Assembly (NCBI GenBank): GCA_018814305.1
Contig: JAHJAA010000046.1
Location: forward strand, 1 to 64,000
Direction of reading: 5' to 3'
DNA from: Pseudomonadota bacterium
Lineage (GTDB): Bacteria; Desulfobacterota; Desulfobulbia; Desulfobulbales; JAGXFP01
Length of the DNA stretch: 64,000 bases
Part shown: positions 4,207 to 16,443 of the stretch, one piece after another
Numbering within the stretch: position 1 is the stretch's first letter
How the letters are laid out: every line of letters starts with the position of its first letter
The notes under the pieces: generated by a model
Databases searched by the model: none
Told to the model about the DNA's origin: nothing
What the model saw: the letters and a program-made list of their open reading frames with translations, nothing else
Translations under genes and position numbers: made by a program

Positions 4207-4345
4207 ATGTCAATACATTCCAGAACGGGTTTTATCCAAAAAAGGATGTTGTTTCAGGTGATCGTATTGCTTTTATATTAACGATAACTCGTTGGGATAA
4301 TCAAGATCATTTCATTTCTTCTTCATATCCCGGCACTGTCCCGGA

Positions 4346-4388
4346 TGTCTCAATCCGCCAGTGTCTCAGTATTAAGGGAAGCGAGACA
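4346..4388. promoter_or_regulatory. distal enhancer palindrome with an extra half-site
   Basis: TGTCTCA at 4362-4368 and CGAGACA at 4382-4388 form an inverted repeat with a 13-base spacer, one base short of perfect. A further direct TGTCTCA half-site lies at 4346-4352. The dyad centre (4375) is about 246 bases upstream of the start predicted from the -24/-12 promoter. It is 107 bases from the second palindrome, close to ten helical turns. This layout is typical of sites for NtrC-type activators; the cognate protein is not encoded in the window. Confidence 0.6.
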
Positions 4389-4468
4389 CACACTTCTCTC
4401 TAGCCCCCACCTTTGCTATGACTAGCAAGGAAGTCCAACTGCCAACCAGACGTCTTTGCCACCCATCA

Positions 4469-4495
4469 TGTCTCACAAAACGACACTTTGAGACA
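4469..4495. promoter_or_regulatory. proximal enhancer palindrome TGTCTCA-N13-TGAGACA
   Basis: A perfect 7-bp inverted repeat with a 13-base spacer. Its centre (4482) is about 139 bases upstream of the predicted sigma54-dependent start. Repetition of the same half-site and spacer in the distal palindrome is the evidence that these are real protein-binding sites. A role as activator sites for the island is inferred. Confidence 0.65.
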
Positions 4496-4594
4496 CATCT
4501 TTATTCCACTGGCCTCTTGATCTCACTTTCACAACACCAAATAACAGATTGATATAATTAGATCTTTTGTTTTTTATCCCCACAAAATCGGATT

Positions 4595-4610
4595 TGGCAC
4601 AACTCATGCT
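4595..4610 (+). promoter_or_regulatory. -24/-12 (sigma54) promoter
   Basis: TGGCAC at 4595-4600 and TGCT at 4607-4610, with the invariant GG (4596-4597) and GC (4608-4609) exactly 12 bases apart, as RpoN promoters require. The expected start of transcription is near 4621. Two spaced palindromes upstream support activator-dependent transcription. The -12 element is ATGCT rather than TTGCA, so it is good but not perfect. Confidence 0.65.
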
Positions 4611-4622
4611 AAAATGAAAGTC

Positions 4623-4862
4623 ATGAAACAATACAACCTATGCATAAAAAAGGTCCTTGAACTTGCCCGTGAGATGATAATCCTGGCAGATGAAGGACAG
4701 GGGGCTGCTGAGGATGATGGGTGCAGGCTTCTGTATAGTGTACTCCAGGACTGTGCCTATAAAATCCGCAAACAGGCCGAGGAAGAACGAGAAGGTCACT
4801 GCCGGACCGGAAAATGGGATGAGCCTGGTTCGGAGTGCGAAGCAACCAATTCATATCAATAA
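4623..4862 (+). CDS. small conserved helical protein heading the oxygen-defence island
   Basis: A 79-residue, mostly helical, acidic protein with a regular heptad-like pattern ([17 protein letters not shown], then [16 protein letters not shown]). It has Cys residues at about 7, 34 and 44. It looks like a real small family seen in Desulfobacterota, but I know no function. Two in-frame ATGs exist (4614 and 4623) and neither has a ribosome binding site. If the -24/-12 promoter is used, the message starts near 4621, so only 4623 would lie on it and translation would be practically leaderless. The stop is 25 bases before the peroxiredoxin start, which implies co-transcription. Confidence 0.55.
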
Positions 4863-4887: not shown

Positions 4888-5475
4888 ATGAGTGTACTTG
4901 TAACCCAAGAAGCCCCGGACTTCAGTGCCCAGGCTGTGATGCCCGATAATAGTTTTACCGAACTAACCCTCTCTTCATATCGGGGAAAATATGTTGTGTT
5001 ATTTTTCTACCCCCTGGACTTTACCTTTGTCTGTCCTTCGGAAATCCTGGCCTTTTCGAGACAACTTGATGAATTCAAAAAGCGCAACACCGAGGTCATC
5101 GGCATCTCGGTCGACTCCCATTTCACCCATCTGGCCTGGAAAAATACGGAAGTACAGTGCGGAGGGATCGGGAACATTCAATTCCCTTTGGTGGCGGACC
5201 TGGACAAGTCAATCGCGAAAAACTATGACGTATTGCTCCCCGACGGCATCGCACTGCGCGGTCTCTTTCTGCTCGACAAGGACGGTCTTGTCCAACACCA
5301 ACTGATCAACAACCTCCCCCTGGGGCGGAGTGTAGACGAAGCCCTGAGGGTCCTTGATGCTCTTCAGTTTACCGAACAGTATGGGGAAGTTTGCCCCGCC
5401 AACTGGAAACCTGGTGAAGATGCCATGAAACCGACAGCGGCAGGCGTTGCCGAGTATCTGACCAAACATCAGTAA
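4888..5475 (+). CDS. 2-Cys peroxiredoxin (AhpC/Prx1 type)
   Basis: A thiol peroxidase of 195 residues that reduces H2O2, organic peroxides or peroxynitrite in the cytoplasm. The peroxidatic cysteine is C49 in the signature [11 protein letters not shown], and the resolving cysteine is about C169 in EVCPANW, as in typical dimeric 2-Cys peroxiredoxins. The start is set by AAGGAG eight bases upstream of 4888; the frame stays open further upstream but without peroxiredoxin similarity. No AhpF or thioredoxin gene lies beside it, so the reductant may be a rubredoxin-linked or thioredoxin system encoded elsewhere. It is the first recognisable gene of the oxygen-defence cluster. Confidence 0.93.
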
Positions 5476-5587: not shown

Positions 5588-5746
5588 ATGGCTAAATACG
5601 AATGTCCCTGCGGATACATCTACGATCCTGCCGAAGGCGATTATGACAGTGGAATTGAACCGGGAACCGCCTTCGAAGACCTTCCCGAAGATTGGGTTTG
5701 TCCCAAATGCGGGGCAGAAAAAGGTGATTTCTGGAAAGTAGGCTGA
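5588..5746 (+). CDS. rubredoxin with shortened first knuckle (CxC)
   Basis: A 52-residue one-iron electron carrier. Family hallmarks are all present: [28 protein letters not shown] and the Phe/Trp C-terminus. The second Cys pair is the normal C38-x2-C41. The first pair is C6-P-C8-G, one residue shorter than the usual C-x2-C. The reading is unambiguous (tgt ccc tgc gga). Its likely role is electron donor to rubrerythrin, superoxide reductase and the flavodiiron protein encoded downstream. An AGAGAGGA ribosome binding site precedes the ATG. The odd knuckle could shift redox potential or mark a subfamily; it is not a frameshift, because the frame stays correct on both sides. Confidence 0.93.
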
Positions 5747-6364: not shown

Positions 6365-6940
6365 ATGGCAGCACTGAAGGGAACGAAGACGGAGAAAAAT
6401 CTTTTGACCGCTTTTGCGGGGGAATCACAAGCCAGGAACAGATACACCTTTTTCGCCAAAAAAGCCCTGAAAGAAGGATTCGTCCAGATCTCGGCAATTT
6501 TTGAAGAGACGGCGGAACAGGAAAGAGCCCATGCCAAAAGACTGTTTGGCTTTCTGGAGGGCGGAGAGGTCGAGATAACCGCATCATTTCCAGCCGGCAC
6601 CATCGCCTCTACAGTAGAAAACTTACGGGCCGCCGCCGCTGGTGAAAACCACGAACACACCGAGATGTACCCTGCCTTCGCCAAAATTGCTCGGGAAGAA
6701 GGTTTTCCGGGCATCGCGGCTGTGATGGAATCAATAGCCGTTGCTGAAAAGGGCCATGAGGAGAGATACCTTGCCCTGGCTGCCAATATCGACAACAAGA
6801 GCGTTTTCAAGAAGGGAGCAAAAACAACCTGGAAATGCAGGAAATGCGGATACATTCATCAGGGAGAAGAAGCTCCTGGATCCTGCCCGGCCTGCGCCCA
6901 CCCGCAAAGTTATTACGAAGTGGCGGCCGAAAATTGGTAA
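6365..6940 (+). CDS. rbr: rubrerythrin (NADH-linked peroxidase)
   Basis: A 191-residue two-domain rubrerythrin. The N-terminal diiron ferritin-like domain carries FAGESQARNRYTFFAKKA, the EETAEQERAHAKR helix and the second ExxH pair (MESIAVAEKGHEERY). The C-terminal rubredoxin-like domain binds one Fe through CRKCGYIH and CPACAHP. It reduces hydrogen peroxide to water with electrons from rubredoxin. AGGAGA precedes the ATG. The gene sits between the DVU0772-like gene and superoxide reductase in the same direction with short gaps, so it is probably in the same transcript. Confidence 0.95.
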   Translation: MAALKGTKTEKNLLTAFAGESQARNRYTFFAKKALKEGFVQISAIFEETAEQERAHAKRLFGFLEGGEVEITASFPAGTIASTVENLRAAAAGENHEHTEMYPAFAKIAREEGFPGIAAVMESIAVAEKGHEERYLALAANIDNKSVFKKGAKTTWKCRKCGYIHQGEEAPGSCPACAHPQSYYEVAAENW

Positions 6941-7002: not shown

Positions 7003-7377
7003 ATGGCTGAAAGAATGGAAGTGTACAAATGTGAGCTCTGCGGGAATATTGTCGAGGTCCTGCATGGTTCCAGTGGCGAACTGACCTGTTGCGGTCAAGC
7101 CATGACCTTGTTCAAGGAGAACACCGTTGATGCCGCCAAGGAAAAACATGTGCCGGTAATTGAAAAAATTGATGGCGGGTATCAGGTTAAGGTCGGCTCA
7201 GTTACCCACCCCATGGAAGCAAGCCATTATATTGAATGGATTGAACTCATCGCCGGAGCAACGATTCTGCGAAAATTCCTGAAGCCCGGCGACACACCTG
7301 AAGCGACCTTCATCACCGATGCCGAGAAAGTTGTCGCTCGGGAGTATTGCAACCTGCATGGGTTATGGAAGAACTAA
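7003..7377 (+). CDS. dfx: desulfoferrodoxin, two-iron superoxide reductase
   Basis: A 124-residue protein that reduces superoxide to H2O2 without releasing O2. The N-terminal desulforedoxin-like knuckle ([13 protein letters not shown]...CCGQ) binds centre I. The catalytic centre II ligands are visible: [22 protein letters not shown] and the C-terminal CNLHGLW. The Lys of EKHVP, important for catalysis, is present. AAGGAG lies upstream of the ATG. The peroxide produced would be removed by the neighbouring rubrerythrin and peroxiredoxin. The length and motif order match the two-iron class exactly. Confidence 0.96.
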
Positions 7378-7430
7378 GGGACTTGGAAAATACTGATGTA
7401 CCTGGATCGCGCCCGAATTTGGGTCAGGTT

Positions 7431-7560
7431 GGGTTGCGCCGATTGAGTAGGTAGCGCCAGACTCCGAAACCACAGGCGTAGCAGCGGACACCGCTGTCGC
7501 TGTTACGGCGAGGATTTCGGAGTCTCGATTCCTCGCTTACCTGCGATTGAGGCGCGACCC
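7431..7560. repeat. nested long palindromic element
   Basis: About 130 bases that can fold as one long imperfect hairpin. The outer arms GGGTTGCGCC (7431-7440) and GGCGCGACCC (7551-7560) differ by one wobble pair. The middle arms are near GTAGGTAGCG and CGCTTACCTGC. The inner arms GACTCCGAAA (7460-7469) and TTTCGGAGTC (7515-7524) are perfect. The apical arms lie around GTAGCAGCGG and CCGCTGTCGCTGTTAC. It has no coding potential. It could be a palindromic mobile repeat, or an RNA structure between the superoxide reductase and ferritin genes. Confidence 0.6.
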
Positions 7561-7619
7561 AAGATGGCCCGAAGGCGGGATGCGTTATGGTCTATCAGCA
7601 TTTTCTGAGCCCCTAAGGC

Positions 7620-7655
7620 TTTCGGGAAGCCATTTTAGGCCAGGGCTTCCCGAAA
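7620..7655. terminator. perfect hairpin in the superoxide reductase-ferritin gap
   Basis: TTTCGGGAAGCC (7620-7631) and its exact complement (7644-7655) around a 12-base loop. No run of T follows on the plus strand, so this is a strong hairpin rather than a textbook intrinsic terminator. It may attenuate or stabilise the transcript between dfx and ferritin. Confidence 0.4.
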
Positions 7656-7763
7656 TACTCCAACGCTCACGACCAAAATCACAGCGATGGAACTTAAAAA
7701 GACTTTCAGTTCTTCCCCCGGGGTCGTTTAGGGGGGAAGATTCATCCTCCTCGGAGAACACCA

Positions 7764-8279
7764 ATGTTAAGTAAAACTATTGAAAAAGCTCTCAACGGGC
7801 AAATCAACGCTGAAATCTACTCATCGTATCTCTATCTCGCCATGTCGGCCTGGTGTGAGTCGACCGGGTTAGCTGGCTTTGCAAACTGGATGCGGATGCA
7901 GGCCCAAGAGGAGATGTTCCATGCCATGAAGCTCTATGGCTTTGTTCATGAACGGGGTGGTCGGGTCTTTCTCGATGGGATCGCCGCACCTCCAAACGTC
8001 TGGAAGTCGCCCCTGGACGTGATCCAATCAACCCTTGAACATGAACAAAAAGTGACCGGGCTGATCAATGGGCTTGCGAATCTGGCCCAAGATGAACGGG
8101 ATCACGCAACCACGATCTTTCTCCAATGGTTTGTTTCAGAGCAGGTCGAAGAGGAAGCCAACGTCGGTGCTGTTCTGGATAAGCTTAAACTGATCGGCAT
8201 GGACACCAGCGGGCTCTTTGTGCTGGATCAGGAAATGGCGTCCAGGGTCTTCACCCCACCGACCACCTCTGCCAAATAA
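7764..8279 (+). CDS. ftnA: bacterial non-heme ferritin
   Basis: An iron-storage ferritin of 171 residues. The four-helix bundle starts with LNGQINAEIYSSYLYLAMSAW. The ferroxidase centre residues sit in the expected motifs: E in NAEIY, ExxxH in QAQEEMFHAMKLY, and the EHEQKVT and WFVSEQVEEEANV helices. It stores Fe(II) oxidised by O2 or H2O2, which limits Fenton chemistry alongside the preceding detoxification enzymes. GGAG lies eight bases before the ATG. It is separated from superoxide reductase by about 385 bases carrying two palindromic structures, so it may also have its own promoter. Confidence 0.93.
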   Translation: MLSKTIEKALNGQINAEIYSSYLYLAMSAWCESTGLAGFANWMRMQAQEEMFHAMKLYGFVHERGGRVFLDGIAAPPNVWKSPLDVIQSTLEHEQKVTGLINGLANLAQDERDHATTIFLQWFVSEQVEEEANVGAVLDKLKLIGMDTSGLFVLDQEMASRVFTPPTTSAK

Positions 8280-8516: not shown

Positions 8517-8636
8517 TGCTACCCATTAAATTGGAACCCACCTCCAATAACCGTTCGAAGTCATTAACGGCTATTGAGAAGAACCTTAAAAAATAATGGT
8601 CACCATCCGTTTTGACCTGGACCAATGGAGGAAATG

Positions 8637-9833
8637 ATGAGCGTTATCGAAATCAAAAAAAATGTATTTTCAGTCGGTGCTGTGGACTGGAACATCAGGG
8701 ATTTTCATGGATACTCAACGTCACTGGGTACGACCTATAACTCCTATCTGATCAAGGATGAAAAGATTGCTCTGTTCGATACGGTGAAACGAGACTTCAA
8801 GGATGACCTCCTCTATCATATCGGTCAAATTGTCGACCCGGAAAAGATTGACTACATCATCGTCAACCATGTGGAAATGGATCACTCCGGCTCCCTGCCG
8901 GAACTCATCAACATCATCAAGCCGGAAAAGCTTTTCTGCTCAAAAAACGGCCACCGGGCGCTCTTAGAACATTTTCACCAGGACGACTGGCCCTACGAGA
9001 TCGTCAAGACAGGAGACACCCTGAACCTCGGCAGCAAGACCGTTACCTTTATTGAAACCCCGATGCTCCACTGGCCCGATTCCATGTTTTCCTATATAGC
9101 CGAGGATAAACTGTTAATCTCCTCCGATGCCTTTGGCCAACACGTGGCTTCCACCGAGAAATATGCTGACGAATTGGACGTCTGCGACCTGATGCATCAG
9201 GCGGCAAAATATTACGCCAACATCCTGACGGTTTTTTCACCCAACATCCAGCGCCTGTTAGTGAAGGTTGCTGAAATGGGGATTGAGATCGACATGATCG
9301 CCCCAGACCATGGGGTAATCTGGCGAGATGAAAAATGCGGCGAAATCCTTGCGGCCTATGACCACTGGAGCCGTTATCAGTCAGCCGATAAGGTTCTGGT
9401 TATCTACGAATCCATGTGGAAAAGCACCGAAAAAATGGCGAATGCCATCGCCAGCGAGCTGTCCAAAGGGGGCCTGGAGGTAAAGATGTTGAACCTCAAG
9501 GTGAACCATCGCAGTGATATTATGACTGAGGTCCTCGATGCCAAGGCCATGATCCTGGGCTCATCAACCCTGAACAACAACATGTTACCGGTAATGGCCG
9601 ATTTTCTTACCTACTTCAAGGGGTTGCGACCCAAAAATAAAGTCATGGCCGCCTTTGGTTCCTATGGCTGGAGTGGTGAAGCGGTCAAGCACATCAATCA
9701 AGCCATCGAAGGGATCAATCTCCCCTTGGCCCATCCAGGTGTCCGGGTAAAAAATGTCCCGACCGAAGAGAACTTTGAAGAGTGCCGGGAACTGGCTCGG
9801 GCCGTTGTCGCTGCCGTTAAAGAGTTGGAATGA
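8637..9833 (+). CDS. A-type flavodiiron protein (rubredoxin:O2/NO oxidoreductase)
   Basis: A 398-residue cytoplasmic enzyme that reduces O2 to water, or NO to N2O, using electrons from rubredoxin. The N-terminal metallo-beta-lactamase domain (about 1-245) carries the diiron ligand motif HVEMDHSG, then LHWPDSM, SSDAFGQH and APDHGVIW. The C-terminal flavodoxin domain (about 250-398) starts at IYESMWKSTEKMA with the FMN phosphate loop. There is no extra rubredoxin or flavin reductase domain. GGAGGA just before the double ATG at 8634/8637 decides the start. Its stop overlaps the start of the DUF3786 gene by four bases, so the two are translationally coupled. Confidence 0.93.
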   Translation: MSVIEIKKNVFSVGAVDWNIRDFHGYSTSLGTTYNSYLIKDEKIALFDTVKRDFKDDLLYHIGQIVDPEKIDYIIVNHVEMDHSGSLPELINIIKPEKLFCSKNGHRALLEHFHQDDWPYEIVKTGDTLNLGSKTVTFIETPMLHWPDSMFSYIAEDKLLISSDAFGQHVASTEKYADELDVCDLMHQAAKYYANILTVFSPNIQRLLVKVAEMGIEIDMIAPDHGVIWRDEKCGEILAAYDHWSRYQSADKVLVIYESMWKSTEKMANAIASELSKGGLEVKMLNLKVNHRSDIMTEVLDAKAMILGSSTLNNNMLPVMADFLTYFKGLRPKNKVMAAFGSYGWSGEAVKHINQAIEGINLPLAHPGVRVKNVPTEENFEECRELARAVVAAVKELE

Positions 9834-11467: not shown

Positions 11468-12775
11468 TTAATAGTTGTATGACGTGGCAAGATAGATCGT
11501 ATATGACAACTGATCAACTTTCTGGACCATCGGAGCATTGGCGAAGATCTGAGCTTCACCGCTCCCCATGGAAAGACTGGCCCCCCCTGTAAGCGTTGAG
11601 TTCTTGGTAAAACGGGTCAAACTCAAACTACCCCCGTACAGATCAATATGTTCAGCCTGATTTACCTTTCCGGTTACCACGTCCGGCGTGTTGGCATTCT
11701 GGGTGAATAATCCTGCCCGCAAAGCCAATTTCGGGGAAAAATACCACTCGCTTCCCACAGCTACATCCCAGGTTGCCTCCCGATCACCGAAATAATTATC
11801 ATCGGTGGCAGTATAATAGGAAAAATCACCGGTAAACATCAGGCTTTCCGATAAAAAGTAGCCAACCCCCACCCTTACATTCACCGGATGTTCACGCTTT
11901 TTATGGCTTGCCTTCTCAACGGTGTCATCATAGGAGAAATTGGTTATATTTCCTAATATTTCTGACCGATATGTAGTCTGGGGCACCGTCTCGGAAGTAA
12001 ATATCGCGACCTTACTTATCCTGAGTCCCAACGACAGCTTATCCACCGGGCTCCACATCAACCCGAGGATGGGTTCAAAACCGTACTCGTTGGACTCGTA
12101 ATAATAGTTCGTCCATTCATAGTCATTATAGGTGTTGGGTGATGAGCTGTAATCCAGCATGACATATTCATTTTTGATATAATCCTTACTCCGGTAATGA
12201 AAATACCCGGTCAGACCCACTGAAAAATTATCAGTAATACTCATCCCAAAAGACGGCCCAAATTTATAGGTTTCATCCTGTTTTTTGATATTGATTGTAT
12301 ATTGGGTGATATCAAGCCCTTGAAGACTCGACGGGAAGTTCGTGGTAAAATTCTGATCCTGATCCTCGATAATGGAATCCGGAACGGCGAAGGATAATCC
12401 GAGAATCCCCTTCCAGAACGGCTGGGTGATGCCGAAGTAGTTGGGCATCAGCGAGGCGCTTTCCCGACGCCAATCATAACGCCCTCCCAGCACCTCAGAA
12501 TAGGTTTTTTCAATAACCGTAAAGGCATTTACACTGGCGGTCAGATTGCTGGCTTGGGCGTAGACGGCCCCGGCGGGATTATAATAAAGACCGGCGGGAT
12601 CATCTGAGATGGCGGTATAAGCCCCTCCCATCCCCGAGGCTCGATTCCCGATCAACTGGTTAAAATAATGAAACTCATCGGCCTGGGCTGAGGCCAACGG
12701 CAAAAATAATGCCACCAGGAAGGGAAAGGCTACCCTATACGAAAAAACGGGACGAAAATCATCGAATCTGCGCAT
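11468..12775 (-). CDS. FadL/OMPP1-type outer-membrane transport protein
   Basis: A 435-residue beta-barrel protein that would let hydrophobic molecules cross the outer membrane. A signal peptide (ending near ASAQA) is followed by the family's N-terminal hatch motif: NRASGMGGAYTAISDDPAGLYYNPAG. Many alternating strands follow, with an aromatic C-terminus (TSYNY). The ATG at 12775 is chosen because AAGGAG lies just upstream; the codon before it is a TTG. It overlaps the end of the M48 peptidase gene and is the last gene of the leftward block. The substrate is not evident. Confidence 0.8.
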   Translation of the reverse strand: MRRFDDFRPVFSYRVAFPFLVALFLPLASAQADEFHYFNQLIGNRASGMGGAYTAISDDPAGLYYNPAGAVYAQASNLTASVNAFTVIEKTYSEVLGGRYDWRRESASLMPNYFGITQPFWKGILGLSFAVPDSIIEDQDQNFTTNFPSSLQGLDITQYTINIKKQDETYKFGPSFGMSITDNFSVGLTGYFHYRSKDYIKNEYVMLDYSSSPNTYNDYEWTNYYYESNEYGFEPILGLMWSPVDKLSLGLRISKVAIFTSETVPQTTYRSEILGNITNFSYDDTVEKASHKKREHPVNVRVGVGYFLSESLMFTGDFSYYTATDDNYFGDREATWDVAVGSEWYFSPKLALRAGLFTQNANTPDVVTGKVNQAEHIDLYGGSLSLTRFTKNSTLTGGASLSMGSGEAQIFANAPMVQKVDQLSYTIYLATSYNY

Positions 12776-13613
12776 CAAACCTCTCCTTTACCACGGGATT
12801 ACGGAGTTGATCCAACCCCTCTACCACCATAAGAGTATTCAGAGCGGCGATCCGCTCTTCAAACGGAGGATGGGTCTTGCTTAATATCTTAATCCTATCT
12901 GCCTCTCCTTGACCGGCCTTCTCCAAATAACGTTTAAAGGCAAAAGAGTCATAACCAGTAGTTGCCAACAGGATCTCGCCGACTTGATCAGCTTCAAACT
13001 CATCCTCCCGCTGGTAGCCTTTTTCAAACAAAATGTCCATGGCCTGATCCACGGCCTGCATAAAGGCGACCCTGGTGGGATCACCAATGGCCCCGAGAAG
13101 ATGGGCGAGCCCCGCCTGGGCCGCATCCTCGCTCCCCTGAAGATGCAACTCTTTCACGATATGACGTTGAGAAGTATGGGCAATTTCATGGGCGAGAACC
13201 GCCGCAAGTTCAGCCTCATCTGCCATCAACTTCATAGCCCCCTGCGTGACAAAAACGTACCCGCCAGGCGCGGCATAGGCATTGACTGTCGGAGAATCAA
13301 GGATGGCGAACTTAAAATCGAGTTCCGGTCGATTGCTGGACATACTCACTGCCCGACCAACCAAGCCAACGTAGCGGAGCAACTTGGGGTCGTCTAAGAT
13401 TTTGTACCGTCCGAGTATCCTTGCGGCCACCTCCCGACCGAAATTGATCTCAACCTCAACATCTGAAGTGGTCACATTCTCCATGGCCGCTATATCGGAA
13501 ATCCGCATCCGGAAATCCTGGGATTCAGCCCGAGTCGTATTCACCTGAAACATAAATCCCAGGCAAATCGCAGGGAGGATCATCAACATTCGACAAGAGT
13601 TGATCGACTTCAT
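12759..13613 (-). CDS. M48-family zinc metalloprotease, exported
   Basis: A 284-residue periplasmic peptidase. A signal peptide spans about residues 1-29. The zinc motif H142-E-I-A-H146 lies in LAAVLAHEIAHTSQRH, and a downstream Glu in FEADQVG supplies the third ligand. The family includes BepA/LoiP/YfgC, which degrade or refold misassembled outer-membrane proteins. There is no C-terminal TPR domain, so it is shorter than BepA. The start codon overlaps the stop of the SH3 gene (ATGA), and its 3' end overlaps the FadL-type gene. This supports a role in outer-membrane protein quality control for the co-transcribed barrel. Confidence 0.88.
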   Translation of the reverse strand: MKSINSCRMLMILPAICLGFMFQVNTTRAESQDFRMRISDIAAMENVTTSDVEVEINFGREVAARILGRYKILDDPKLLRYVGLVGRAVSMSSNRPELDFKFAILDSPTVNAYAAPGGYVFVTQGAMKLMADEAELAAVLAHEIAHTSQRHIVKELHLQGSEDAAQAGLAHLLGAIGDPTRVAFMQAVDQAMDILFEKGYQREDEFEADQVGEILLATTGYDSFAFKRYLEKAGQGEADRIKILSKTHPPFEERIAALNTLMVVEGLDQLRNPVVKERFDAQIR

Positions 13614-14131
13614 TGCGCGAACCCCCTTTGCAAAAAATCCACCGCTTCGCTATCGGTAACCTTCAGGTTTTCCATCTCTGCCAGAGCAGGATAATTGGCT
13701 AACCCGCCCTCAACCGTCCTTTTCCGATCTTCCGCCGCCAATCCCCTCGCTGCTCCAGCAGTAGCCACCGCCGAGGCCCGGCGGCGGGCATGGGTACCGA
13801 TCTCGGAATCAGCCTGAATTGCCCCTTGCTTTTCCATGGGAGGATATGAAGCTACCAGAAGCTTGGACAGCCACCCCTCCTTATCCTGATAACGAACCCT
13901 GTACCAGGATCCTTGTTGCTCAAGTGGATCAACCGAGGTGCCTTTGGCAACCTCGATCAACACTGGGGCGCTAAATTTTGGATTGGCCAGAATCTTGGCT
14001 TTGGTACTCTGAATAAACAGAGGTTCAGCTGCGTTCACGATTGTCGCAGCCCCCAGGAGGACAACCACCACCCAAAGTACGTGTCGAACCCAGCCGGTCA
14101 AATCTTTTCCGTGAGCCATATCAACCCCCAT
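13610..14131 (-). CDS. exported SH3-like domain protein
   Basis: A 173-residue protein with an N-terminal hydrophobic export signal (LWVVVVLLGAATIVNAA). A bacterial SH3 fold follows at about residues 38-95: KAKILANPKFSAPVLIEVAKG, QQGSWYRVRYQDKEGWLSKLLV. The C-terminal Ala/Arg-rich part (about 105-173) is probably helical. Such domains often bind peptidoglycan or peptides. A second ATG 12 bases downstream is an equally possible start. The stop overlaps the M48 protease start, so the products likely work together in the envelope. Confidence 0.75.
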   Translation of the reverse strand: MGVDMAHGKDLTGWVRHVLWVVVVLLGAATIVNAAEPLFIQSTKAKILANPKFSAPVLIEVAKGTSVDPLEQQGSWYRVRYQDKEGWLSKLLVASYPPMEKQGAIQADSEIGTHARRRASAVATAGAARGLAAEDRKRTVEGGLANYPALAEMENLKVTDSEAVDFLQRGFAQ

Positions 14132-14259
14132 AAGTAACGAAGATGCCGCAGGTTATGAACGTACCTATTATTGCCCGAGGAGCACCCGTCTGTCAACAAA
14201 CTCTCGGGGTGAAAAAATATTAATCCCCCCGTTCTCCGCTTCAGCTCATCCCTCTTCTG

Positions 14260-16443
14260 CTACTTCGTTGTCATGGTAAAAACACCATCCCATTCCGGCG
14301 GGGGCGGCGATTGCTTAAAAAAGGCACATCGCTCCCGGTATATCTCACCCAGGAGCGTATTATCCAAACTTCGATAAAGGTCCATACATAAATCCCATTG
14401 CCGGGCTTGATATAAACGAAAAGCCTCCTCTCCAACGGCGACCTTCTCGCGGGCTGCGGCAAGCTGCGCATCGGGCCCATCGGGAGAGGCCAGTGGGGCA
14501 TAAATTTTGATCGGCTTTTTTTTCCCCTTCACCCGGATCTGGTCCACGACCATACAGGGAATATCCGTTACCAGCTTCTGCCAGGTATATTCGGAAATGA
14601 TCACCGGGTAGCCATACTGTTTGGTTACCCCCTCCAACCGGGAAGCCAGATTGACATTATCGCCGATTACGGTGTAGTCCATCTTCCGCTCACTTCCAAT
14701 ATTACCCAAAATCACCTTGCCGCTGTTCAAACCGATCCCGATCTTGATCTCGGGATACTTCCGGCGTTTCAGTTCCGCATTGACTTCATCCAGTTTTTCA
14801 ACCATGGCCAGGGCCGCCATGACGGCATGATCCGCGTGATTTTCCACCCGGAGCGGCGCCCCCCAAAAGGCCATCATCGCATCCCCGATAAATTTATCCA
14901 AGGTTCCCTGATGCTCGAAAACCACCTCAGTCATGGCGCCAAAATGACAGTTGAGCAGATCAACAATCTGGGCCGCATCAAGGATCTCGGACATGGAGGT
15001 GAAACCACGTAAATCGGAAAAGAGAATCGTCATATCTTCCTGTCGACCAACTTCACCCATGCTGTACAGCTCCGACTTATCAAGCAATTCAGTCAATATT
15101 TCCGGGGAGACATAACGGGAAAAAACCTGCCGCACCTTTTTCTTATCGCGCCCTTCGGTAAAGCTCAGATAGGTAAAAGAGCCCAACAGAGTCAATAGGA
15201 CCGAGGCCGTAGGCGCCACCAGGTCATAGACCCTGTTGCCGGCATACGCGGAAAATCCAAAGTAGAGGTAGCCGCCCAGCACAAAAAAGGGGAAACCCGA
15301 CCTGATCATAAAATGGCGCCCATGGAAAATGGCCAGCGCTGAAACAAGAGAAAAAATCAGGATCAGCCAATGGGTCAGAGCCGGATCGGCTTTTTTAAGA
15401 AAATCATTCTGGAGAATATTGGAGGCGGCCCAGACATGAACCATTACCCCAGGGATCTTGGCAGACATGGGAGTCGTCTTAATATCTTCCAGCCCGGCCG
15501 CATTGGCCCCGATATAGACAATCTTCCCGGCAAATTCATCCGGGTAAATTAAAAGATTTTCTACCTCCCCGGTTTTGATCATCTTCAACGAATGAAAGAT
15601 CCCACTGACCGAATACTCCTGCACCATCCCATAGGGATTGACCAGATAGTCCTCAGCCAGATCAAGGGGGATACTTTTATCTCCCAGGGCAAGGTTTCCG
15701 GGGGTATACACCACGCCTTTCTCGGTGAGCAAATCGTCCAGCAGGGGGACCACAGCCATGGATGGAAAAAGCTCACCCTGATATTCACGAAACAGTCGAA
15801 CCCTCCGGATCACCCCATCCGGATCGGCATCAAGGCCAACTATCCCAATCCCCTTAGAGGCCTGAGAAAGCCCCTGAAATGGTAAAAAATAATTATTATG
15901 AATATGACGCCGAAAACCTGAAGCCGGTCGGACTGCAAATTTTTCTCTAAAATCGTCCGGCAGGGGCAAATCCAACCCCCGCCCCTTGGCTTCATCTTCC
16001 CGGTCGATGATAATCTGGGCTGAATGATAGGCAACGCCGGTTTCGCTGGTCTGATCAATCAAATATTGGTCACTGGCATTGGGGGCAATTATACCTCTTT
16101 CAGTGTGACTCTCATTTTGGGTCAACAGGATATCAAAAAGGACCGCCTTGGCCCCGCCCATGACCATGAATTCAAGGAGATCCCCATAGACTGAGCGGGG
16201 CCATGGCCATCGTCCCAACTCACTGTTCATATCCTGGAGTGAGGCCTCATCGATCATTACCGTGACAATCTCGGGGGTGACCTTTTTCGTGGATCGATAA
16301 ACCTTCATCCGCTGATCAAGGGTCATCCATTCGAGACGCTGAAAAAAACCGGACTGGTATAAACCGGATATCAGTCCGGTTACCGCCAAAACAATCAACA
16401 ATTCCCAAAGTAGATTTTTCTTTTTCAACTGCTGAAGGATCAT
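14260..16443 (-). CDS. membrane sensor adenylate/guanylate cyclase with CHASE2 domain
   Basis: A 727-residue class III nucleotide cyclase. One transmembrane helix at about 12-32 is followed by a large extracytoplasmic CHASE2 sensor (about 35-345), three membrane helices (about 355-445), and a catalytic domain (about 465-645). Catalytic signatures are DMTILFSDLRGFTS, GDAMMAFWGAP, GIGLNSGKVILGNIG and YTVIGDNVNLASRLE. The C-terminal tail of about 80 residues is helical. It should make cAMP (or cGMP) in response to a periplasmic signal. It lies 16 bases after the DUF3108 gene in a leftward block; a cNMP-binding HDOD protein encoded at 47.3 kb is a candidate receptor. Confidence 0.9.
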   Translation of the reverse strand: MILQQLKKKNLLWELLIVLAVTGLISGLYQSGFFQRLEWMTLDQRMKVYRSTKKVTPEIVTVMIDEASLQDMNSELGRWPWPRSVYGDLLEFMVMGGAKAVLFDILLTQNESHTERGIIAPNASDQYLIDQTSETGVAYHSAQIIIDREDEAKGRGLDLPLPDDFREKFAVRPASGFRRHIHNNYFLPFQGLSQASKGIGIVGLDADPDGVIRRVRLFREYQGELFPSMAVVPLLDDLLTEKGVVYTPGNLALGDKSIPLDLAEDYLVNPYGMVQEYSVSGIFHSLKMIKTGEVENLLIYPDEFAGKIVYIGANAAGLEDIKTTPMSAKIPGVMVHVWAASNILQNDFLKKADPALTHWLILIFSLVSALAIFHGRHFMIRSGFPFFVLGGYLYFGFSAYAGNRVYDLVAPTASVLLTLLGSFTYLSFTEGRDKKKVRQVFSRYVSPEILTELLDKSELYSMGEVGRQEDMTILFSDLRGFTSMSEILDAAQIVDLLNCHFGAMTEVVFEHQGTLDKFIGDAMMAFWGAPLRVENHADHAVMAALAMVEKLDEVNAELKRRKYPEIKIGIGLNSGKVILGNIGSERKMDYTVIGDNVNLASRLEGVTKQYGYPVIISEYTWQKLVTDIPCMVVDQIRVKGKKKPIKIYAPLASPDGPDAQLAAAREKVAVGEEAFRLYQARQWDLCMDLYRSLDNTLLGEIYRERCAFFKQSPPPPEWDGVFTMTTK

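Follow-up and report, generated by a model that had tools for sequence, protein, structure and literature searches.

A putative sigma54-dependent enhancer and promoter ahead of an oxygen-defence operon in a Desulfobulbales genome

The closest described sigma54 activator of the kind considered here is OrpR, which reportedly senses redox through an Fe-S cluster. How strict anaerobes switch superoxide reductase, rubrerythrin and flavodiiron proteins is so far only partly understood. OrpR (DVU2106) of Desulfovibrio vulgaris is, like the activator discussed below, a one-component sigma54 activator of a sulfate reducer, and the orp operons have palindromic upstream sites, sigma54 promoters and IHF between them, a layout similar to the one at our locus (PMC3897727). 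PerR regulons of delta-proteobacteria contain peroxide-defence genes, among them rbr, ahpC and roo, and no conserved regulatory element was reported for the Desulfovibrio rbo/rub/roo operon (PMC545781). The available part of the D. vulgaris sigma54 regulome lists 37 enhancer-binding proteins (EBPs), several with PAS domains, whose regulons mostly comprise one to four operons, and no oxygen-defence regulon was found among its categories there (PMC4641369). Peroxiredoxin is enriched among sigma54 targets in Proteobacteria, according to the part of a broad survey available to us (PMC12316311).

We analyzed a 64,000-nucleotide stretch of DNA from a member of the Desulfobulbales (contig JAHJAA010000046.1 of assembly GCA_018814305.1), here called the window. 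Comparison with related genomes makes it highly probable that the region ahead of its oxygen-defence genes serves as enhancer and promoter for a sigma54-dependent operon under the control of an EBP whose gene lies elsewhere in this genome, on contig C26. An earlier note on this DNA had described two inverted repeats of TGTCTCA and one more half-site, and direct reading found all three in place. The putative distal enhancer palindrome (TGTCTCA-N13-CGAGACA, 4362-4388) has one mismatch, the putative proximal one (TGTCTCA-N13-TGAGACA, 4469-4495) is perfect, both are unstranded and were also identified by comparison, and the extra distal half-site TGTCTCA lies on the plus strand at 4346-4352. A single copy of the perfect palindrome is present in the 64 kb of the window, where 0.01 copies are expected by chance. 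If one mismatch is allowed, the whole 4.15-Mb genome has just one more copy, which falls within a coding sequence on contig C86. Among the palindrome matches with one or two mismatches, those on C86 and C7 were inspected as possible additional regulon members in this genome. The former falls within a patatin-like gene, the latter upstream of a rho-like gene, and both were judged to be chance matches.

The -24/-12 promoter box with exact GG/GC spacing that had been reported downstream of these sites was confirmed by direct reading as TGGCACAACTCATGCT on the plus strand at 4595-4610 (GG 4596-4597, GC 4608-4609, N10 between). The box scores 9 of 11. Because six further positions in the window reach an equal score, the box by itself is weak evidence, and its conservation bears the weight. 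The genome encodes RpoN (Sigma54_DBD match, E 1.8e-63). From the promoter geometry, transcription is predicted to start at 4621 on the plus strand, 12 nt downstream of the C in the -12 GC.

The first gene behind the promoter is a small ORF (4623-4862, plus strand), which was absent from the earlier note. It encodes a conserved 79-aa protein and is predicted to be leaderless. Homologs were found in 14 of the 96 genomes of the window's order that formed our comparison set (the window's own included), and these 14 small-ORF genomes span 10 genera. We used the ATG at 4623, which is common to the orthologs, and set aside an alternative ATG at 4614. The ATG lies 14 nt past the C of the -12 GC in the window and 13-16 nt past it in 14/14 genomes. 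A sigma54 start about 12 nt past the -12 C would put the AUG at about +2 to +5, with a leader of about 1-4 nt, too short to contain a Shine-Dalgarno sequence, and the 14 genomes are accordingly predicted to share a leaderless sigma54 message. The N-terminus of the small protein appears to be translated, because codons 2-19 have a pN/pS of 0.17 in five same-family genomes, equal to that of the remaining gene, compared with about 1.7 in the two shifted frames. Several small-ORF homologs outside the order instead have their start codon 37-46 nt past the -12 C. The protein is predicted to form a two-helix hairpin, and residues D31, C34, D43 and E55 are invariant. It had no match in Pfam or NCBIfam, and the best E value in a fold search of the PDB was not below 1.4. 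In each of the 14 order-level genomes the small ORF is the first gene of the unit, and in other phyla it is again found next to the EBP gene.

The genes that follow, all on the plus strand, encode a peroxiredoxin (4888-5475; domain match to AhpC-TSA with a 1-Cys Prx C-terminal domain), a rubredoxin (5588-5746), a DVU0772-family protein (NCBIfam NF045682; 5869-6237), a rubrerythrin (6365-6940) and a desulfoferrodoxin/superoxide reductase (7003-7377). The DVU0772-family gene thus lies between those for rubredoxin and rubrerythrin, and a protein of this family (NF045682) is also encoded near the peroxiredoxin in several relatives. Genes for a ferritin (7764-8279, after a 386-bp gap) and a flavodiiron protein (ODP family plus flavodoxin; 8625-9833, after a 345-bp gap) are only candidate members of the transcript. 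The intergenic gap between the superoxide reductase and ferritin genes (7378-7763) could carry a separate ferritin promoter.

A scan of related genomes, proposed in the earlier note, detected the half-site array together with a -24/-12 box in every order-level small-ORF genome. In unbiased counting of 6-mers over the 14 orthologous promoters, TGTCTC/GAGACA ranked top. Altogether 72 such half-sites were present in 14 x 300 bp, compared with 2.2 +/- 1.4 in dinucleotide shuffles, and each promoter had 4-6 of them within 300 bp upstream. The box is retained in 14/14 small-ORF genomes, start-codon geometry included; the -12 dinucleotide is GT or GA rather than GC in G028, G018, G043, G017 and G064. 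The earlier note had named absence of the palindrome from close relatives with the same gene order as a refuting outcome; of the same-family genomes with the small ORF-peroxiredoxin order, 4/4 keep array and box.

Measured from the -24/-12 box, most loci have a proximal palindrome about 77-137 bp upstream and, about 167-290 bp upstream, a distal cluster that often includes tandem half-sites at intervals of 9-10 bp. The two palindromes of the window had been credited with an identical 13-base spacer. Their spacers are indeed of equal length, but the spacer sequences differ, and the proximal palindromes of relatives have spacers of 11-14 bp. The pitch of 107 bp, or "ten helical turns", is not conserved either, since the distance from distal to proximal sites is about 90-131 bp in relatives. 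The comparison rules out a fixed 13-bp spacer and a ten-turn pitch as functional features. A weak match to the IHF consensus, TATCAATCTGTTA, is present between enhancer and promoter on the minus strand (4542-4554). It recurs as a strict match at the window's offset in G011 and with one mismatch there in G002 and G038, and is absent from most others. A conserved IHF site was rejected, as a strict match in 2/14 genomes and a relaxed one at the same offset in two more were considered too weak.

As a negative control, we used 25 order-level genomes without the activator, and for the 13 of these with a closely related peroxiredoxin we inspected the 700-bp upstream regions. Several of the control peroxiredoxins are encoded beside superoxide reductase, rubrerythrin or rubredoxin genes. 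Upstream of the peroxiredoxin, these 13 EBP-lacking genomes had 5 half-sites in a total of 9.1 kb, about as many as expected by chance, and in the 700 bp before this gene no -24/-12 box reached the score threshold.

Most genomes with the EBP show the array pattern almost nowhere but at this locus. Of the one-mismatch palindromes at other places in relatives, most lie in coding sequence, and the intergenic ones comprise one in G093 and a few in family f5. Those at position 1501 of L031, L032, L033 and L034 (family f5, without the EBP) are of the type TGTCTCG...CTCCCTGG...TGAGACA, and the intergenic palindromes of this family likely represent an element unrelated to the system described here. 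A second array with a -24/-12 box was found in G064 ahead of genes for a 108-aa protein, a ferritin and a flavodiiron protein (G064:C5, L050:6700-7000), which suggests a multi-operon regulon in that genome, and in G017 cytochrome bd genes sit between the small ORF and the peroxiredoxin gene. The regulon therefore seems to be oxygen-centred, yet variable in content.

The activator is encoded outside the window, as the earlier note had said. A search for a co-occurring NtrC-family activator, also proposed there, was successful: a candidate gene lies on C26, another contig of the window's genome (about 12639-14366), and EBP and small ORF occur together in 13/14 genomes. The EBP is a one-component protein of about 575 aa, composed of a degenerate ArsC/LMW-phosphatase domain, a PAS domain, an AAA+ domain and a Fis-type HTH (Pfam matches PAS, Sigma54_activat and HTH_8). 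All NtrC-class features, namely the Sigma54_activat AAA+ domain, the GAFTGA loop and the Fis-type HTH, are present. Among 24 strong EBP candidates in the window's genome, the ortholog on C26 matched with 56% identity over positions 3-577, and the runner-up with 39% identity over the C-terminal three quarters only. The N-terminal/PAS region was detected in 14/96 order-level genomes, 13 of them small-ORF genomes (Fisher p ~3e-15, uncorrected for shared ancestry). The small-ORF genome G043, which is 78% complete, had no EBP match, and the match in G010, not counted as a small-ORF genome, is a GAF-PAS-AAA paralog. This paralog (G010:C10, L085:592-2436) has a GAF-like N-terminus, a PAS cysteine motif of the same type and a similar HTH, and its gene adjoins a small ferredoxin-like gene.

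The EBP gene is not adjacent to the array in the window's genome; it stops directly upstream of the array in G011, G017, G036, G038 and G062. From conservation, adjacency and co-occurrence, we infer that the EBP recognises TGTCTCA half-sites. The spacer length of 11-14 bp, which is unusual for a rigid dimer site, counts against this model.

In an alignment of 12 EBPs, the GAFTGA motif and the helix RATLYRFL were invariant in 12/12. The PAS domain carries cysteines in the pattern C-x8-C-x3-C-x2-C, three of them invariant and the fourth present in 11/12, and the simplest reading is that they form an Fe-S or disulfide redox sensor. They are not universally needed, because a Verrucomicrobia relative (L130) that keeps site and small ORF lacks the PAS cysteines, and the EBP of G064 lacks the fourth. 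The PAS part resembles FixL, NifL and LOV domains. For the first ~135 residues, an arsenate reductase/LMW phosphatase fold is predicted (model of the G011 homolog, mean pLDDT 84; Z 16.2 and rmsd 2.3 over 132 residues against B. subtilis ArsC), and EBP homologs of Lentisphaerales, Kiritimatiellae and Verrucomicrobia exceed the Pfam LMWPc cut-off. The C-x5-R catalytic loop is kept in the Lentisphaerales homolog L102. The N-terminus was considered and rejected as an LMW-PTP/ArsC enzyme, since the fold is present, but the catalytic loop and its cysteine are lost in the window's order.

When named genomes were scanned, relatives of the EBP N-terminal/PAS region turned up in uncultured Desulfobulbales, Desulfobacterales, Lentisphaerales, Kiritimatiellae, Planctomycetes-group, Verrucomicrobia and Fibrobacter assemblies. 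The layout of EBP, half-sites and small ORF beside oxygen-defence genes was found in other Desulfobacterota, Lentisphaerae, Kiritimatiellae and Verrucomicrobia. Small-ORF homologs are located near the EBP gene in many outside genomes, Rbr, SOR, ferritin, FprA or Rd genes are near several, and a CydA gene is also among the neighbours. At 39 EBP loci outside the order, there were 63 exact copies of TGTCTCA/TGAGACA in the 550 bp past the EBP stop compared with 5 in the 550 bp before. At least one exact 7-mer was present within 550 bp downstream in 22/39 loci, and none within 550 bp downstream of the EBP stop in 17/39. Of 395 genomes sampled from the phylum, 37 matched the N-terminal/PAS profile, many of them with a shorter PAS-AAA-HTH form.

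The comparative genomics of array, box, EBP and RpoN supports the earlier proposal of an activator-dependent RpoN promoter. Sites, promoter, conservation, co-occurrence, adjacency and domain make-up, all read from the sequence, suggest the following mechanism. The EBP encoded on contig C26 would bind directly to the TGTCTCA half-sites of two clusters, one lying about 100 bp and the other about 215-250 bp ahead of the -24/-12 box. The intervening DNA would loop, perhaps aided by IHF, and so carry the AAA+ ring of the EBP to the RNA polymerase-sigma54 complex, and ATP hydrolysis by the EBP would open the promoter. The transcript would begin beside the AUG of the small helical-hairpin protein and would run on through the genes for peroxiredoxin, rubredoxin, DVU0772-family protein, rubrerythrin and superoxide reductase. 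Oxygen or redox is the most likely signal; it would be sensed by the PAS cysteine cluster, which would probably hold an Fe-S centre, and expression would be expected to be on under oxidising conditions.

Alternatively, the TGTCTCA sites might bind another regulator, such as a repressor of a different family, while another EBP drives the sigma54 promoter. The 24 strong EBP candidates in the genome leave room for this, as does the inferred nature of the binding specificity, and the distance between half-sites varies more than is usual with Fis-type dimers. We nevertheless consider this scenario improbable, because the EBP described here is the only regulator that an unsystematic look at the neighbourhood showed adjoining the sites in many lineages and phyla, and because it tracks site presence in 13/14 genomes. 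Still less credence can be given to an operon mainly under a sigma70 promoter with PerR-type control, in which the sigma54 box would be accessory. PerR with sigma70 is the described control of rbr/ahpC in several delta-proteobacteria (PMC545781), and there is a weak -35/-10-like match at 4272-4301. However, this match is upstream of the array, and no sigma70-like match was found on the plus strand between array and small ORF. The sites are, by inspection, unlike the PerR boxes of Table 7 in PMC545781, and -24/-12 box and start-codon geometry are conserved in 14/14 genomes.

A possible, though rather unlikely, variant is that the activator senses sulfur species, nitric oxide, a metal or, through the ArsC-like domain, arsenate, and that the defence genes respond only secondarily. 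This would change the signal step only and leave the sigma54 mechanism in place. Flavodiiron proteins can reduce NO too, so that an NO signal would fit this activity, and the N-terminal domain of the EBP has the ArsC/LMW-PTP fold, with an intact C-x5-R loop in the Lentisphaerales homolog. However, the window's order has lost the catalytic cysteine, most targets belong to oxygen and peroxide defence or encode cytochrome bd, and the conserved PAS cysteines suggest redox sensing.

Whether the locus belongs to a cross-phylum sigma54 regulon not described before is, in our judgement, evenly balanced. In such a regulon, an ArsC-PAS(4-Cys)-AAA+-Fis activator would serve anaerobes as a dedicated oxygen/redox switch and would recognise TGTCTCA half-sites at variable spacing; the first product in Desulfobulbales would be a leaderless small protein. 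It is not mentioned in the available parts of three sigma54 surveys (PMC4641369, PMC6615313, PMC12316311), and the accessible text of the one on Clostridiales (PMC6615313) does not mention rubrerythrin, superoxide or flavodiiron; our literature was open-licence, and an earlier description is possible. The open-licence literature also yielded nothing relevant on the TGTCTCA motif or DVU0772. With a candidate activator, a 7-bp half-site and a defined promoter at hand, a sigma54-based oxygen switch can be tested directly, and this set recurs across unrelated anaerobe lineages.

Compared with known systems, the operon shares peroxide-defence targets with PerR, but PerR belongs to the Fur family, recognises other boxes and involves no ATP-driven sigma54 step. 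The AAA+ and HTH parts of the EBP match the NifA, NorR and PrdR models of NCBIfam, with scores far below the curated cut-offs and matches that begin past the sensory region. Some motifs in the available part of the D. vulgaris sigma54 regulome also consist of TGT...ACA half-sites, separated by 9, 11 or 12 bp as opposed to 21 bp here (PMC4641369). In the same part of that source, OrpR has a GAFTDA loop and the orp targets are listed under cell division, whereas the loop is GAFTGA in 12/12 of our EBPs. With this different loop and other targets, membership of the EBP in the OrpR group was rejected. The EBP further differs from OrpR by its extra ArsC-like domain, its TGTCTCA sites and its oxygen-defence targets.
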